IMG/VR virus record: IMGVR_UViG_3300049846_002063
Coordinates: 1-39,819 of that record
DNA length: 39,819 nucleotides
Source: a virus
Direction: 5' to 3' (one strand)
Shown here: piece by piece, positions 8,479-38,332 of the stretch
How the letters are laid out: each line of letters opens with the position of its first letter
Position numbering within the stretch: the stretch's first letter is position 1
Made by a program: the position numbers and the translations under genes
Notes under the pieces: model-generated
What the model saw: the letters and a program-made list of their open reading frames with translations, nothing else
Databases searched by the model: none
What the model was told of the DNA's origin: nothing

Positions 8479-8510
8479 AAAATTAAAAAGGCAAGCTAGA
8501 TAGTCTAGCT
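8479..8510 (-). terminator. Hairpin and T-tract before the resolvase gene
   Basis: On the minus strand: AGCTAGA, loop CTA, TCTAGCT, then TGCCTTTTTAATTTTT. It would end leftward transcripts arriving from the late genes, or act as an attenuator in the resolvase leader, since the Shine-Dalgarno follows directly. Confidence 0.6.
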
Positions 8511-8576
8511 CACCTTCTCGTGAAAACTGCTATATACAGCTCACTTCGTTCGCTGTATATGTTTTAAAACTATAAT

Positions 8577-8616
8577 ATTCTGTATTGATTCTGATCATAT
8601 TCTGAATATTAATCTG
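8577..8616. repeat. ATTCTG array with 11-bp period
   Basis: ATTCTG starts at 8577, 8588 and 8599, exactly 11 bases apart, with AATCTG at 8611. Repeats on one face of the helix suggest cooperative protein binding. Confidence 0.55.
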
Positions 8617-8666
8617 TAGTGTCGGTTTTCCGTCGTCGTTTCGTTTACACTACACTCCTAGTAAAA

Positions 8667-8687
8667 CCTCCCTCCCCTTCCCCTCCC
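8667..8687 (-). other. G-quadruplex-type tract
   Basis: The minus strand carries G-runs of 3, 4, 4 and 3 separated by A, AA and A, in a 21-base pure purine tract. Loops this short favour a stable parallel quadruplex; a purine mirror-like tract could also form a triplex. The G-rich strand is the RNA-sense strand for leftward transcripts. Confidence 0.7.
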
Positions 8688-8823
8688 TAAAGCAGTTTAA
8701 AAAACATTGTCTACTCGACAAGTTTTTCTCATTAATTAAGAATTATGTAATTAAATGTAGTTATTAGACTCACCTTTAGGTGATGAGTATTTTGACGCAA
8801 GGCAAAATGCTCAAAAACTTCCT

Positions 8824-8849
8824 ATATTATTTACTAACGTAAATAATAT
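8824..8849. repeat. Perfect 11-bp AT-rich hairpin
   Basis: ATATTATTTAC, loop TAAC, GTAAATAATAT. It lies just before the TAATATACAGT repeats. Confidence 0.75.
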
Positions 8850-8861
8850 GTATTATAACTA

Positions 8862-8906
8862 TAATATACAGTAATAAAGATCTATAATATACAGTTAATA
8901 TACAGT
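8862..8906. repeat. Iteron-like TAATATACAGT repeats
   Basis: The 11-mer TAATATACAGT occurs at 8862-8872, 8885-8895 and 8896-8906; the last two are directly adjacent and the first is 23 bases upstream. Direct repeats beside an AT-rich hairpin resemble iterons that bind a replication initiator. Confidence 0.65.
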
Positions 8907-8911
8907 TATTC

Positions 8912-8946
8912 TTCCGCGTAAGATCTTCCGCGCGCGCACGCGCGTA
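8912..8946. repeat. TTCCGCG repeats and alternating CG tract
   Basis: TCTTCCGCG occurs at about 8910-8918 and 8924-8932. From 8929 to 8946 there are 18 bases of strict pyrimidine-purine alternation, almost all CG, with Z-DNA potential. It is a sharp GC island in an AT-rich region. Confidence 0.6.
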
Positions 8947-9138
8947 GCAATAACTGTGCCAACTGATATTACTTCTAGAGCAGTTTAGGTCAGAACTTTT
9001 TCTGCACCTACAGCCAATACTCTAAATAATTAAAGAACCGCTCTATAATCTTTTACAAATAGACTTTGATGGAAGGATGAGTTACGCTGCGTCCTACAGT
9101 TAAAACGCTGTCATAATTAAATTAGGAAGGAATACTAT

Positions 9139-9645
9139 CTAGACTTCTTTTAAATACATTTCGTAAAGTTTCTTATGGACACTTTGATATAGTTTTAGAC
9201 TGGCTGTAAAGTATCCTCCCTTATGGAGTTCATTAATAAAGTCTTCGCGTCTGCCGTCAACAGCCGCAATCCAGGCGTTCCAGTAGCGGTTGTTGGCTAA
9301 CAGTCGTAGATGATCTAAAAGCCCGTCATGAGCTGACAGAAAAGCTTTAAAATGTGTTTGTGGATGAGGCGGATCAAACCATTCTTCTTTGCCATTAATG
9401 ATTTCACTACACCTGAACATTTGCACATATCCATCATAATTTTTAGGAACTTTTGCATTACCAAAATTATAGTTCCACATTGATTTGTAACCTCCCGTTT
9501 CGAGATGTACTTGTGCCAGCAGAATAGCCAGCATTTCGTTTGATGGTTGTGTTTTTTCAGGCATAAAATCATTTAAGGCATCCTTAAACAGTTGAATTAC
9601 CTGATGTTTTTGAAGTGTGGTCTTTTTAGCAGTTATTATTTTCAT
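9139..9645 (-). CDS. Endolysin, lysozyme-like peptidoglycan hydrolase
   Basis: A 168-residue single-domain protein. 'LAQVHLETGGYKSMWNYNFGNAK' (about 43-65) matches the catalytic segment of glucosaminidase/FlgJ-like lysozyme-fold enzymes, in which a Glu (here Glu49) precedes 'TGG...NFGN'. It would cleave the glycan backbone of the cell wall at the end of infection. It has no signal peptide, so a holin is needed; a three-span membrane protein lies a few genes upstream. The ATG at 9645 has no clear Shine-Dalgarno, which may be a result of the endonuclease gene having inserted directly upstream. Confidence 0.75.
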   Translation of the reverse strand: MKIITAKKTTLQKHQVIQLFKDALNDFMPEKTQPSNEMLAILLAQVHLETGGYKSMWNYNFGNAKVPKNYDGYVQMFRCSEIINGKEEWFDPPHPQTHFKAFLSAHDGLLDHLRLLANNRYWNAWIAAVDGRREDFINELHKGGYFTASLKLYQSVHKKLYEMYLKEV

Positions 9646-9668
9646 TTTTAGTCGAGTTAAGAAAAATC

Positions 9669-9718
9669 TTTTACTCCTTATAAATGTTGTCGCTTTTCGG
9701 CAGCATTTAGGAGTAAAG
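9669..9718 (+). promoter_or_regulatory. Hairpin hiding the endonuclease ribosome site, with an internal TATAAATG promoter box
   Basis: TTTACTCCT (9670-9678) pairs with AGGAGTAAA (9709-9717), and AAATGTTGTCG (9682-9692) pairs with CGGCAGCATTT (9698-9708). The stem is about 20 bp with a 3-base bulge and the loop CTTTT. It covers the whole Shine-Dalgarno AGGAG. TATAAATG (9679-9686) sits in the left arm. A transcript begun from it, near 9691, would lack the sequestering strand. TTAAGA (9657-9662) 16 bases upstream could serve as a -35 box. Confidence 0.75.
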
Positions 9719-10441
9719 ATGAGTTATATTTATGCAATTTTTGAAAATTCAACAGAATTACCTATTTACGTAGGATCAACATCAACCAGTTTAAATAACC
9801 GTTTCCGACTGCATTTACGCGATGCGTTTAAGCGAGACAGTCAGGCTAAAATTCACGAATATATTAGATCAAAAGCATCATCAATGAACGATGCTAAATC
9901 TGTATTCAATATTCAGCAACTGAAGGAATGTTCAGAATTGCTAGCGCCAGATTATGAAGAATTTTTCACAACAAAATTACGAAGCGATGGCTATGTACTG
10001 TTGAATATTTTGAAGGCAGCAAAATCCCTACAGCCTATTGACACACGTAATACACCTGCTGTGGTTGATGCTAATACATTATTTTGCAGACACTGTGGGT
10101 GCGCAAAACCCAAATCAGAATTCCACAATAAAAAATCAATGACCGGAAAACAATCATATTGCGCGGAGTGTCAGATCAAATTGATGTCTGAATATAGACG
10201 TGCAAAAATAGTCAAATCACTCAAAAAAATTCCGTCACAATATACGCCAGAAACAGTACCTCTGTCTAAATTTTGTGCAAAATGCAAGCGAGTTTTACAG
10301 ATTAATAAATTCTATGTGTGCGCAACACATAAAGATGGGTTTCAATCCTACTGTTCATCATGTTGTAAAAAATATGATAAACAAAAACAATTAGCTAAAA
10401 AAGCACAAATAGAATCAAGTATTAATTCAGCATCACTTTAA
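9719..10441 (+). CDS. Free-standing GIY-YIG homing endonuclease with zinc motifs
   Basis: A 240-residue protein from ATG 9719 (AGGAG upstream). Residues 3-5 and 17-19 give the YIY...YVG pair of the GIY-YIG fold, followed by Arg28/His32, a Glu in 'YEEFFTTKL' and 'YVLLN', all in the usual order. The C-terminal half has two CxxC...CxxC modules (about residues 120-150 and 185-215), expected to bind zinc and DNA. It is the only rightward gene in the late block and is convergent with its neighbour, with overlapping stops at 10438-10441. Such genes spread by cutting phage DNA that lacks them. Expression looks controlled by the hairpin at 9669-9718. Confidence 0.85.
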   Translation: MSYIYAIFENSTELPIYVGSTSTSLNNRFRLHLRDAFKRDSQAKIHEYIRSKASSMNDAKSVFNIQQLKECSELLAPDYEEFFTTKLRSDGYVLLNILKAAKSLQPIDTRNTPAVVDANTLFCRHCGCAKPKSEFHNKKSMTGKQSYCAECQIKLMSEYRRAKIVKSLKKIPSQYTPETVPLSKFCAKCKRVLQINKFYVCATHKDGFQSYCSSCCKKYDKQKQLAKKAQIESSINSASL

Positions 10442-11181
10442 AATTTATCATAGGAAACTAATCTGTAATATAGAGGATCAGATATTATGTCAAACAGATC
10501 ATAATACTGGTCCTCAATTATTATGTCCCTGGAAACAAGCCTAATTGTTTGCGAATAATCGGAGTGGTCTCGCGTGTGGGAAAATCCAGCAGGTTGAATT
10601 ACCTTAAGATTTTCAAATTCTTTTGTTTTATGTAGTTTTATTCCATTCCATGTATTTTTATTTGTCTCAATATGCCATCCGTAATTACATGCAATATTTT
10701 TCTTTGCACTGGGATGAATTATCCAATCTTTACCGACATCAGCAACTAATTGATTTGGTGCAGGATCAACTCCGCGAATAAATGCATCTACATCCCTGCT
10801 ATGTTGCACACACGCTATACCAGATGATGATATTTGACGCACAGCAGGACGAATCTTTACCTCAGAATATTTAAATATTATGTCCGATATTTTTTCTGTT
10901 GGTAGTGAATATCCAAATGTGTCCGCAATCTCAATAGCTAAATCATACGTAGCATTGATTCTAATTCCGTCCAATTTTACAGCATCTGTTGCAACTGTAA
11001 TTATTGTTTTAGGGGCTTGACAAATCATTATTGGAACCATTGTAGGTTCGTCTATTTTGTCTGCCTGTATTGCGTCCAAAATGAAATTTTCGTATCCATT
11101 TGACGCGGTGCTTTTAAATGCCATAATCTCTGAAGTATTAAAATTCATTTTGTCGAGCCTTGATTTTTTGAAGACATCCAT
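10438..11181 (-). CDS. Hypothetical late protein, 247 aa
   Basis: A 247-residue soluble protein, placed between the lysis genes and the endonuclease. The middle and end carry conserved-looking 'GIACVQHSRDVDAFIRGVDP' and 'AGFSHTRDHSDYSQTIRLVSRD', rich in His, Asp and Arg, which suggests an enzyme or virion protein, but I do not recognise the family. The start is unsure: ATG 11181 has no Shine-Dalgarno and sits 2 bases after a TATAAT, whereas ATG 11148 (residue 12) has AAGG about 9 bases upstream and would suit a transcript starting from that box. Confidence 0.65.
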   Translation of the reverse strand: MDVFKKSRLDKMNFNTSEIMAFKSTASNGYENFILDAIQADKIDEPTMVPIMICQAPKTIITVATDAVKLDGIRINATYDLAIEIADTFGYSLPTEKISDIIFKYSEVKIRPAVRQISSSGIACVQHSRDVDAFIRGVDPAPNQLVADVGKDWIIHPSAKKNIACNYGWHIETNKNTWNGIKLHKTKEFENLKVIQPAGFSHTRDHSDYSQTIRLVSRDIIIEDQYYDLFDIISDPLYYRLVSYDKF

Positions 11182-11183
11182 TT

Positions 11184-11230
11184 ATTATAGAAAGTGAAAA
11201 GCTTTCTTGTCTGACACTGATACTGACACT
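11184..11230 (-). promoter_or_regulatory. Promoter-like TATAAT with CTGACACT direct repeats upstream
   Basis: On the minus strand TATAAT lies at 11184-11189, with a weak CAGACA-like -35 box about 18 bases upstream. CTGACACT occurs twice, at 11211-11218 and 11223-11230. Following a terminator, this would restart transcription of the 247-residue gene and the endolysin. Confidence 0.45.
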
Positions 11231-11260: not shown

Positions 11261-11287
11261 AAAAGCCGGCAAACTTTGCCGGCTTTT
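11261..11287. terminator. Rho-independent terminator in the late block
   Basis: AAAAGCCGGCAA, loop ACT, TTGCCGGCTTTT: a 12-bp stem with A- and T-tracts on the two sides, so it works both ways. It follows the coiled-coil gene and ends the main leftward late transcript. Confidence 0.9.
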
Positions 11288-32223: not shown

Positions 32224-32631
32224 TTATATGCCCCACGGAATACCATATTGGAATGGAGATCCTGACCATCCATCTCCAGTATATCCAGCATTACCATAGA
32301 CATCATTTACTACAGCTATACCGAAAAGAGTTGATAGTCTACCTACCCACATTCTACCAGCAGATCTTAATTCTGATTGAACTGAACCTTGAAAGAATTC
32401 AGGATCACCTTGACCAGCAGAGCTAATACCTGCTACATCTAATGCGATTGATGTTAATCTTGAATCTATGTCTGCTAATTTAGTAAGTATATCTTCTGTC
32501 TCAGCTTGTCCAGCTACATCATTTCCAAATAGTTCTATAGCAGACTCAAGTCTTGGATTTGATTGTGTATGAATATTCGGAAAACCTAAATAGAATCTAA
32601 TTTTTGTTTTTTGTAAATCTGTAAATGCCAT
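32224..32631 (-). CDS. Head-tail connector-like protein, 135 aa
   Basis: A 135-residue helical protein, first after the capsid gene. 'FTDLQKTKIRFYLGFPNIHTQSNPRLESAIELF' and 'LTKLADIDSRLTSIALDVAG' suit the helical adaptor proteins that attach to the portal. AGGAG before ATG 32631. Assigned mainly from order (capsid, connector, stopper, gp10-like, terminator). Confidence 0.55.
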   Translation of the reverse strand: MAFTDLQKTKIRFYLGFPNIHTQSNPRLESAIELFGNDVAGQAETEDILTKLADIDSRLTSIALDVAGISSAGQGDPEFFQGSVQSELRSAGRMWVGRLSTLFGIAVVNDVYGNAGYTGDGWSGSPFQYGIPWGI

Positions 32632-32653
32632 TTAGGCTCCTAATGTAAGAAGC

Positions 32654-32681
32654 GGGAACGTCGGCTTAAGCCGACGTTCCC
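32654..32681. terminator. Perfect 28-bp palindrome after the capsid gene
   Basis: GGGAACGTCGGCTT and its exact complement form an uninterrupted dyad, 14 bp per arm. It lies 16 bases after the capsid stop without a long T-tract, so it is probably an mRNA-protecting or partial-stop hairpin that keeps capsid mRNA high. Confidence 0.75.
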
Positions 32682-32696
32682 TTATAGTAGAACTAA

Positions 32697-33704: not shown

Positions 33705-33733
33705 GTTGTTTTCCTATTTTATTATTTATAGTT

Positions 33734-35944: not shown

Positions 35945-38332
35945 TTAAAATATTCCAACTGGTGCATTAATAACAAATGGTTTAAATGACTTCTCTTCGT
36001 ACAATGCAGTGAAAGCCCACACAAGAGCATCCAGACGATCGGGTGACTTATTCGTACCCTTTTTAAAAGCCTCGCCTTCTGGATCAAAGGTGCGCATTTG
36101 TGTCTCTAATAATACGAATTCCTTACAGTGAAATATCTTATTTTGCTCGTAGAGTGCGGCTACAGGTTCTGCTCGGGTCATTTTTCCTCTTGACGCTGTC
36201 ACCAGTTTTACAGGAATATTTGGAGCCAAGGATTTAAATACAGATTCTAGCCACATTCCTCCTTGATTTTTCTCCACAACAATATAGTCTGCATTATATG
36301 TTCTAAATGCTTCTATAGCGACGCTCGCAGCATGATTAGCTGTACCTACACAGGAGAGATCCGCAAATACAAAACCCCTCTCTCCATTTTTACCAGCCAC
36401 AATTATTCCATGCTCATTGGATTTACCATTATTGCTCATTGCAGGGTCAACAGAAACAACAATCTTTTCACAATTCTCTGGTAATATTACTCCACGCTGA
36501 ATCCAGTTTTCTTTAAATAGAACTCCAGAATCATCAAGAATTTTTGCATAAATCTCTTGTTGACCCAATCTTGTGTTGGCGTTCTTCTTTAAATGCTTTA
36601 TATACTTTCTAGTTAGATTTTGTGCATTTTGAAAAGAGTCACCCTCGGTCACATAACAGTCACTGTCATTCATTAATTCTATAAGCAATTGTCCAGCGAC
36701 AATTTTCGGCGTTGTTGTAATTATTGCTTTTGACCCGCCTTTTCGTAATGCTAATACAGCTTGATCCCAAGTATCTTTTAGATTATAATAGCTAGCCAAC
36801 TCATCGAACCACGCTCCTGACAAGTTGTTTCCACGCACCGCGTCAGGAGTGTCAGAAGAAAAGGAATATATCTGTACGCCATTTACTAATGTTAATGTTA
36901 AATCCTTCCTGTCGAAAGCCGCCTTGACTCCCATACGCTTAAATGTTTCAACAAGACCGGAATCTCCAAGGATTTGATTTCTCTTAATATCATTGAGAGA
37001 GCGTCCGAATATTCCGTAACGTCCTGCATTCTTGTCTGCCCAACATTCTCGAGCAAGCCATTCGGAAGCCGTGCGCGTATTGTGTGTTGCTATAAACGAT
37101 TCTGTGACTAAGAAGGTTGAAGTGGGAGAGTCTACTTTAATGCATTTTGTCGGAACGGATTCTACTTCTGAAATCTTTGTGATATACCTTCTATTTATTC
37201 TCAATATTTGATTTGTTGACTTATTTATTTTTGATACTTTTCTAGATAATTTAAATACATCATATGTTGTTGAAAAATGTATTCTATATCTATCCTTCTT
37301 TAGTGATGCTTTTATTCCTAGACTACATACCAATTCATACATTTGTTTTGCTAGTACTGGAATAACAGAGCAGAACTCCATATTCCTGCTGTTCTTTTCA
37401 ACGCAGCCGTCTGTATCCATTAAGCCTTGTAGTAATAGCATTCTTTGTTGCTTTGATGCCCTTAAATACATAGATGGAATATGTTTATTATTTATTAAAT
37501 TCAGCTCTTTAAGGGTTGCTCGTAAGTCATTGATTCTAAAGCGCGAAGCCCTTTCTGCACATTTCCTTGTATCTGTGACTGAATATCCATATGAGGTAAT
37601 TATTGATCTTAATTCCTCTATGTCATCATCTGCTTGGGTTATTATAGCGTCTCTGGAATCGCCATCACCAAGCCATACACCTAATATATATGGATGAATT
37701 GGTAAGTCTTTTTCCTCACATTCTATTATAGCATTATCTATACTATATTCCAATTCTCTTCCAGTATTATAATTACTGATAATATCTTTCATTCCAAACA
37801 CATTTTCGTACATCGGCACGAATTGTGTTTTTCTGTCTTTACGCTCTAATTGTTTTCGTTCCTGCTTTGTTCTAAGATGCCATAAATGATTTTCATCGGC
37901 AACTATACTACTACCGTCATCAAATTCTACTTTGTAGCATTTGTTTCCAATCCATATAGGTGATGTGTAGGTTACTTTGGTTTCTCTGCCATTCATGTCG
38001 TATACAGTGTCACCAACAGAGATCTCTCCCATTGTTTTAAACCCGGATGTGGTAGGTATTTTCTCACCCACCCACAGCGCTTTTCCCCAACCCCTCCCAG
38101 CAAGAATAAGCCAATAACTCCACGGATCTGGCGGTGGTAACTGATTAGGTCTGGCTATATACTCCCACTTTGTTGTTAATTCATTTTGTTCAAATGGTGA
38201 GAGTTTACCAAGAATAGCATCCTGCTTATCCTTTGGCAATTGTTTTAATTTATCAAAGAATTTGTCCCTATAGGACTTCTGCCCCTCCGGCATCCACCAT
38301 CTAATTTTGTTTGGGTCAATAATTAGCGACAC
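35945..38332 (-). CDS. terL: Terminase large subunit interrupted by an intein
   Basis: A 795-residue precursor starting GTG 38332 (AAGG upstream), whose start overlaps the previous gene. Residues 1-84 and 419-795 form a 461-residue large terminase, the normal length. The Walker A motif is 'LAGRGWGK|T', cut by the intein between Lys84 and Thr419. Walker B is 'GAWFDELASY', and the nuclease residues are in 'VSVDPAMS', 'IVVEKNQGG' and 'SPDRLDALVWA'. The enzyme pumps DNA into the head with ATP and cuts it. It is inactive until the intein splices itself out. Confidence 0.93.
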   Translation of the reverse strand: MSLIIDPNKIRWWMPEGQKSYRDKFFDKLKQLPKDKQDAILGKLSPFEQNELTTKWEYIARPNQLPPPDPWSYWLILAGRGWGKALWVGEKIPTTSGFKTMGEISVGDTVYDMNGRETKVTYTSPIWIGNKCYKVEFDDGSSIVADENHLWHLRTKQERKQLERKDRKTQFVPMYENVFGMKDIISNYNTGRELEYSIDNAIIECEEKDLPIHPYILGVWLGDGDSRDAIITQADDDIEELRSIITSYGYSVTDTRKCAERASRFRINDLRATLKELNLINNKHIPSMYLRASKQQRMLLLQGLMDTDGCVEKNSRNMEFCSVIPVLAKQMYELVCSLGIKASLKKDRYRIHFSTTYDVFKLSRKVSKINKSTNQILRINRRYITKISEVESVPTKCIKVDSPTSTFLVTESFIATHNTRTASEWLARECWADKNAGRYGIFGRSLNDIKRNQILGDSGLVETFKRMGVKAAFDRKDLTLTLVNGVQIYSFSSDTPDAVRGNNLSGAWFDELASYYNLKDTWDQAVLALRKGGSKAIITTTPKIVAGQLLIELMNDSDCYVTEGDSFQNAQNLTRKYIKHLKKNANTRLGQQEIYAKILDDSGVLFKENWIQRGVILPENCEKIVVSVDPAMSNNGKSNEHGIIVAGKNGERGFVFADLSCVGTANHAASVAIEAFRTYNADYIVVEKNQGGMWLESVFKSLAPNIPVKLVTASRGKMTRAEPVAALYEQNKIFHCKEFVLLETQMRTFDPEGEAFKKGTNKSPDRLDALVWAFTALYEEKSFKPFVINAPVGIF
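37079..38080 (-). mobile_element. Class 3 intein with LAGLIDADG homing endonuclease in terL
   Basis: A 334-residue intein, residues 85-418 of the precursor. It begins with Ala1 ('ALWVGEKIPT') in place of the usual Cys/Ser, and ends 'ATHN' before a +1 Thr. All residues of the class 3 signature are present: Trp67 two after the block B His65 ('NHLWHL'), Cys313 at the block F position of the usual Asp ('TKCIKVD'), and Thr332 before the final His-Asn. In class 3 inteins that Cys attacks first. Between them lie two LAGLIDADG motifs ('LGVWLGDGD' at 133-141 and 'LLLQGLMDTDG' at 215-225), so the element can home. Confidence 0.9.

Follow-up and report, generated by a model that had tools for sequence, protein, structure and literature searches.

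How a nuclease gene that reads against its neighbours could stay silent in stray RNA and still be expressed is the question raised by an endonuclease gene whose Shine-Dalgarno sequence lies within a long hairpin. The gene is carried on a virus record of 39,819 bases, which was analysed at its full length and is called the window below. The minus strand of the window carries a contractile-tail gene set (tail sheath, baseplate, portal, terminase, and major head protein). We favour, with slightly better than even confidence, the view that the hairpin locks the start site of the endonuclease mRNA, and that the lock is opened by the gene's own promoter within the hairpin arm.

The endonuclease gene and its neighbours

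The locus is composed of the following features.

9139-9645, minus strand: upstream neighbour, divergent, glucosaminidase/endolysin-like by domain matches
9719-10441, plus strand: GIY-YIG endonuclease gene, 240 aa with two C-terminal CxxC...CxxC modules, assigned by Pfam and motif alignment
10438-11181, minus strand: downstream neighbour, convergent, function not assigned, from the gene list
11261-11287, plus strand: strong terminator-like hairpin with T runs on both strands

The N-terminus of the 240-aa protein matches the Pfam GIY-YIG family weakly (23.3 bits versus a cut-off of 22.6). When the protein is aligned with T4 I-TevI, it has residues corresponding to the GIY-YIG tyrosines, glycine, arginine, histidine, glutamate, and asparagine, which we take to be the catalytic residues by comparison with I-TevI. 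The two CxxC...CxxC modules at the C-terminus match phage endonuclease VII/HNH and Lar-like families, which is consistent with the initial annotation of the gene as a zinc-finger-bearing GIY-YIG endonuclease. Single-sequence structure prediction of the protein gave no usable model (pLDDT 39.5). An upstream GTG start at 9617, from which the hairpin would be coding, was rejected; it has no visible Shine-Dalgarno sequence, and the GIY motif starts directly from the 9719 ATG. A search for a group I intron around the gene gave no Rfam match at the gathering score and none at E up to 5. Since no intron was seen, the gene is taken to be free-standing, as had been claimed.

The endonuclease gene is antisense to both neighbours, a point absent from the initial annotation, and no plus-strand gene lies close upstream of it in the window. 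The terminator-like hairpin at 11261-11287 is the probable end of both the endonuclease transcript and the leftward late operon.

Several other stretches of the window have features of their own. At the downstream neighbour (10438-11181, minus strand), a CAGACA-18-TATAAT sequence (11181-11213) ends 2-3 nt 5' of the listed ATG, so that this gene would have either a leaderless mRNA or a true start further in. Positions 8480-9138 form an AT-rich stretch of about 650 bases without a clear gene, containing several short palindromes and repeated TATACAG-like words, and are a possible origin or regulatory region. A very stable hairpin (GGGAACGTCGGC...GCCGACGTTCCC) at 32641-32682 on the minus strand directly follows the major head protein gene, precedes 32224-32631, and is likely a terminator or an mRNA-stabilising element. 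At 795 aa, the terminase-like protein encoded at 35945-38332 on the minus strand is long; a primase and a DnaC-like helicase loader family are additional matches of its N-terminal part.

A hairpin over the ribosome-binding site

In sense RNA the hairpin has 21 bp, one 3-nt bulge, and a 5-nt loop (-23.5 kcal/mol). In the MFE structure, positions 9669-9678 pair with 9709-9718 and positions 9682-9692 with 9698-9708, giving these parts.

9669-9678, plus strand: lower left arm, TTTTACTCCT, pairing with 9709-9718 and including the anti-Shine-Dalgarno CTCC
9679-9681, plus strand: bulge TAT, 3 nt, the sole bulge in the stem
9682-9692, plus strand: upper left arm, AAATGTTGTCG, pairing with 9698-9708, with U-G wobbles at 9687/9703 and 9690/9700
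9693-9697, plus strand: loop CTTTT
9698-9708, plus strand: upper right arm, CGGCAGCATTT
9709-9718, plus strand: lower right arm, holding the Shine-Dalgarno GGAG (9710-9713) 5 nt before the ATG

The GGAG is paired throughout, and the endonuclease ATG follows at 9719-9721. In RNA starting at 9660-9672, each Shine-Dalgarno base has a probability of being unpaired of about 0.001 or less. This computed structure agrees with the initial description of a hairpin of about 20 bp with one 3-base bulge that covers the whole Shine-Dalgarno sequence. The 60-nt stretch has an MFE of -24.4 versus a mean of -8.8 (sd 2.4) for 10,000 of its dinucleotide shuffles (z -6.4); the best shuffle reached -21.9, and 0/10,000 folded as well. 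The folding z-score of a 121-nt stretch around the hairpin is -4.4. No Rfam family matched the endonuclease leader.

The antisense RNA of the hairpin folds at -14.9 versus -23.5 kcal/mol in sense. The antisense fold is weaker because each of the two arm substitutions, a U-G pair in the sense RNA, becomes an A-C mismatch in antisense. Based on two substitutions, this computed bias argues mildly that selection has acted on the sense RNA and that the element is not a pure DNA palindrome.

The effect of losing the 5' part of the RNA was computed as opening energy, the free energy needed to unpair positions -13 to +6 around a start, in the long RNA and in 5'-truncated RNAs. The endonuclease start costs 17.1 kcal/mol to open in the long RNA, more than any other of the 51 window starts (mean of the other 50, 5.8; sd 2.9), and 3.6-4.1 kcal/mol once the RNA begins at 9688 or later. 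Truncation relief is 13.5 kcal/mol at this gene versus a mean of 1.1 (sd 1.4, maximum 7.1) at 49 other window starts. The same calculation was applied, as a positive control, to three T4 genes whose switch is established or proposed, and opening fell from 12.8 to 2.1 kcal/mol for I-TevI, from 15.6 to 5.0 kcal/mol for segB, and from 16.8 to 3.9 kcal/mol for gene e. The claim that RNA lacking the left arm is freed at the start site thus holds in computation, with a change like that of the three T4 genes. Two of 23 other T4 starts also had high relief, alc (12.3 kcal/mol; position 1276 of L008) and denV (8.6 kcal/mol; position 1356 of L009), so relief is not specific by itself; these two are either false positives or unrecognised cases.

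A candidate promoter in the left arm

Two promoter-like sites precede or overlap the hairpin.

9657-9684, plus strand: candidate sigma70-type promoter, TTAAGA-16-TATAAA, with a weak -35 at 9657-9662 and a predicted start at about 9691
9610-9639, plus strand: second promoter-like site, TTGAAG-18-TATTAT, from which RNA would include the whole hairpin

The left arm has TATAAATG at 9679-9686, made up of the TAT bulge and AAATG. Its TATAAA (9679-9684) resembles a -10 box and would place the RNA start at about 9691, the top of the left arm. This box exists because of the sole bulge in the stem. When the bulge is removed, the left arm loses its -10 box (the best remaining candidate has 3 mismatches), and only 5 of the 64 possible bulge triplets would yield one. 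The sequence hints that the bulge may serve the promoter. Sigma70-type sites are common in AT-rich DNA here (7 on the plus strand in 3 kb), and 15 promoter-like sites were found in the region versus 12.5 expected by chance. Of the good sigma70 -10 box that had been claimed for the left arm, the TATAAA itself is present; the -35, TTAAGA, is weak, and such sites occur at chance frequency.

A box close to the T4 late promoter had also been noted in the left arm. T4-late-like boxes with at most one mismatch number 104 in the window versus 99 expected, and a tblastn search for gp55 or gp45 gave no significant match. Because the late box occurs at chance frequency and gp55 has no match, the T4-late reading was dropped and a sigma70-type promoter is what we infer. 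A search for sigma70 region 2 gave no match, which is a weak negative as the same search mode missed the known GIY-YIG domain. The window has only two exact TATAAATA sites. One of them, at 33723-33730 on the minus strand, precedes the major head protein gene by 19-26 nt and may be there by chance.

In the proposed switch, plus-strand RNA begun upstream of about 9672 would fold, bury the Shine-Dalgarno sequence, and be poorly translated. A promoter with its -10 box (TATAAA, 9679-9684) in the left arm would start RNA at about 9691, and this RNA would lack the left arm and be translated. The gene would thereby be shielded from stray or read-through transcription and expressed solely from its own promoter, in a design like that of I-TevI and segB, probably with a host-type sigma box rather than a T4 late promoter. 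We infer that the in-arm promoter is active, that read-through RNA is made, and that translation responds accordingly. The silent RNA had been proposed to come from far upstream. No sense transcript is evident there, and no enclosing upstream sense transcription unit was found, both flanking genes running the other way. Given this antisense placement and the lack of a plus-strand gene close upstream, silent RNA would arise from stray rightward transcription, for example from the promoter-like site at 9610-9639. Alternatively, it could come from a new context once the gene has moved.

If all endonuclease mRNA started upstream, the hairpin would merely damp expression to a low constant level, and there would be no switch between long and short RNA. 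Such damping is consistent with the weak consensus of the in-arm promoter and with the other promoter-like site at 9610-9639, and a low level of a DNA-cutting enzyme is plausible in itself. We consider it unlikely, however, as the placement of the bulge makes a -10 box and the expected start is the top of the left arm, as in the T4 cases with the box in the arm.

It is less probable again that the element is mainly a DNA operator, in which case the endonuclease or a repressor would bind the inverted repeat that spans the promoter. Autorepression of this sort is known for I-TevI, whose operator overlaps its late promoter (PMC2988022), and the inverted repeat here overlaps promoter-like sequence. 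However, the I-TevI operator is recognised through its likeness to the homing site (PMC2988022), and the two arm substitutions here keep pairing in sense RNA only and break the DNA symmetry, a weak argument as there are only two. An operator role and an RNA role could coexist.

Opening of the start site in trans, whether by an antisense or small RNA, by a protein, or by temperature, is a little less probable still. The hidden RBS of ISPpu9 is opened by an antisense RNA (PMC8450116), and any leftward transcript of the neighbours that ran through the leader would be antisense to it, but no candidate trans RNA was identified and the leader has no Rfam family match. An RNA thermometer was rejected because opening the start site still costs 11.7 kcal/mol at 55 C. 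That the hairpin is a minus-strand transcription terminator whose overlap with the start site is incidental is very improbable: ATTTTTCTT comes after the inverted repeat in the leftward direction, but the minus-strand fold is weak (-14.9, with two A-C mismatches), a scan for terminators did not list it, and it would stop transcription just before the endolysin-like gene.

Known hairpin control and other GIY-YIG genes

The start-site lock that we favour has precedents. Hairpins over the RBS have been published for I-TevI, II, and III, segB, and mobE (PMC2988022), T4 gene e is a further case (PMC3014915), and sequestered ribosome sites of numerous intron genes have been noted in a review (PMC3073962). 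In T4, the hairpins silence long sense RNAs made from early and middle promoters (PMC2988022, PMC3014915). I-TevI resembles the gene described here in being a GIY-YIG gene with a hairpin in its long RNA that buries the RBS and a left arm that holds a promoter box (here a candidate), and the computed effect is alike (12.8 to 2.1 kcal/mol versus 17.1 to 3.6 kcal/mol here). I-TevI is borne on an intron (td), co-directional with td, and has a T4 late promoter (gp55), whereas the gene here is free-standing and runs against its neighbours, with no T4 late machinery found in the window. The initial annotation had equated the two arrangements. The occluded start, the relief of 13.5 kcal/mol upon truncation, and the box in the arm fit that claim, and a T4 late promoter and upstream sense RNA do not. 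The mechanism is quantitatively plausible and matches the T4 cases, apart from these two T4-specific features.

The free-standing state of the gene had been regarded as a departure from known cases, but T4 segB and Aeh1 mobE are also free-standing endonuclease genes in which a hairpin hides the RBS (PMC2988022; mobE by description). They differ in belonging to T4-like phages and in being co-directional with the surrounding genes, and segB has no significant sequence similarity to the endonuclease gene. By analogy, T4 segD is a precedent for antisense placement, being a free-standing GIY-YIG gene oriented against its neighbours; the review gives no promoter for segD and shows no RBS hairpin (PMC2988022). 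Transposase mRNAs (ISPpu9, and IS200 by citation in PMC8450116) are alike in that mRNA structure at the RBS silences a mobile-element enzyme, but ISPpu9 encodes a transposase and is relieved by an antisense RNA rather than a downstream promoter (PMC8450116).

The initial proposal to look for the same leader beside related endonuclease genes yielded no close protein or leader relative in the searched phages and viral contigs. Searches with the 240-aa protein by tblastn found no close relative in phages or in plasmids, where there was one weak GIY match (Euzebya), and the sole matches of protein pattern searches in viral and genome contigs (L002 and L004) were false positives. No phage had DNA similarity to the window, no related phage was found in viral contigs through the portal, endolysin-like, and terminase genes, and searches of phages, plasmids, and viral and genome contigs found no relatives with and without the endonuclease gene. 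A hairpin pattern search in viral contigs gave two matches. The first (L005, 5558-5615), on another viral contig, has the same TTTACTCC...GGAGTAAAGATG ends and precedes a 54-aa gene that is followed by terminase; it was not counted, since alternative pairing lets its start open at a cost of only about 3-5 kcal/mol. The second (L006) was rejected as a palindrome with no gene on it; this near-perfect palindrome of about 60 bases (8602-8661) lies beside a 'CTAATTAACACTCGCACACT' repeat array.

As no close relative was found, 20 GIY-YIG genes of phages outside the T-even group were sampled. Relief was at least 7.5 kcal/mol in five of them versus 0/49 window controls (Fisher p 0.001), or versus 2/72 when the T4 controls were added (p 0.005). 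The survey is suggestive only, since the 7.5 kcal/mol threshold was picked after looking at the data and ranking all 20 genes against the controls gave no difference (Mann-Whitney p 0.20). The five genes belong to Sinorhizobium phiN3, Enterococcus EfV12-phi1, Streptococcus CHPC1109, Staphylococcus PT1-1, and crAss-like cr112_1. In CHPC1109 (L016), phiN3 (L017), PT1-1 (L019), and EfV12-phi1 (L020), opening falls from 10.7-15.0 to 1.5-3.5 kcal/mol upon 5' truncation, as in the gene studied here. These four differ in being co-directional with the upstream gene where annotated, in having leaders with no sequence resemblance to the endonuclease leader and, phiN3 excepted, in having weaker hairpins. 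Introns probably carry several of the sampled GIY-YIG genes, namely those adjoining thymidylate synthase, ribonucleotide reductase, or terminase genes. The survey hints that the scheme arose more than once.

The locus is probably a further case of the hairpin control scheme known from T4, in an unrelated non-T4 phage, with a putative promoter and predicted regulation. Free-standing hairpin cases were already known in segB and mobE, and what is probably new is the candidate in a non-T4 phage. More tentatively, the locus may represent a free-standing endonuclease gene outside the T4-like phages, set against the direction of its neighbours, with a portable leader lock in which the bulge makes a host-type promoter. 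Such a lock could silence read-through anywhere and would need no phage-specific sigma factor. If the lock works, the T4 way of quieting homing endonucleases is not bound to T4 late transcription. It would then be a general solution for mobile nuclease genes, and further cases could be sought by comparing the computed opening energy of starts when the 5' arm is present and when it is absent.
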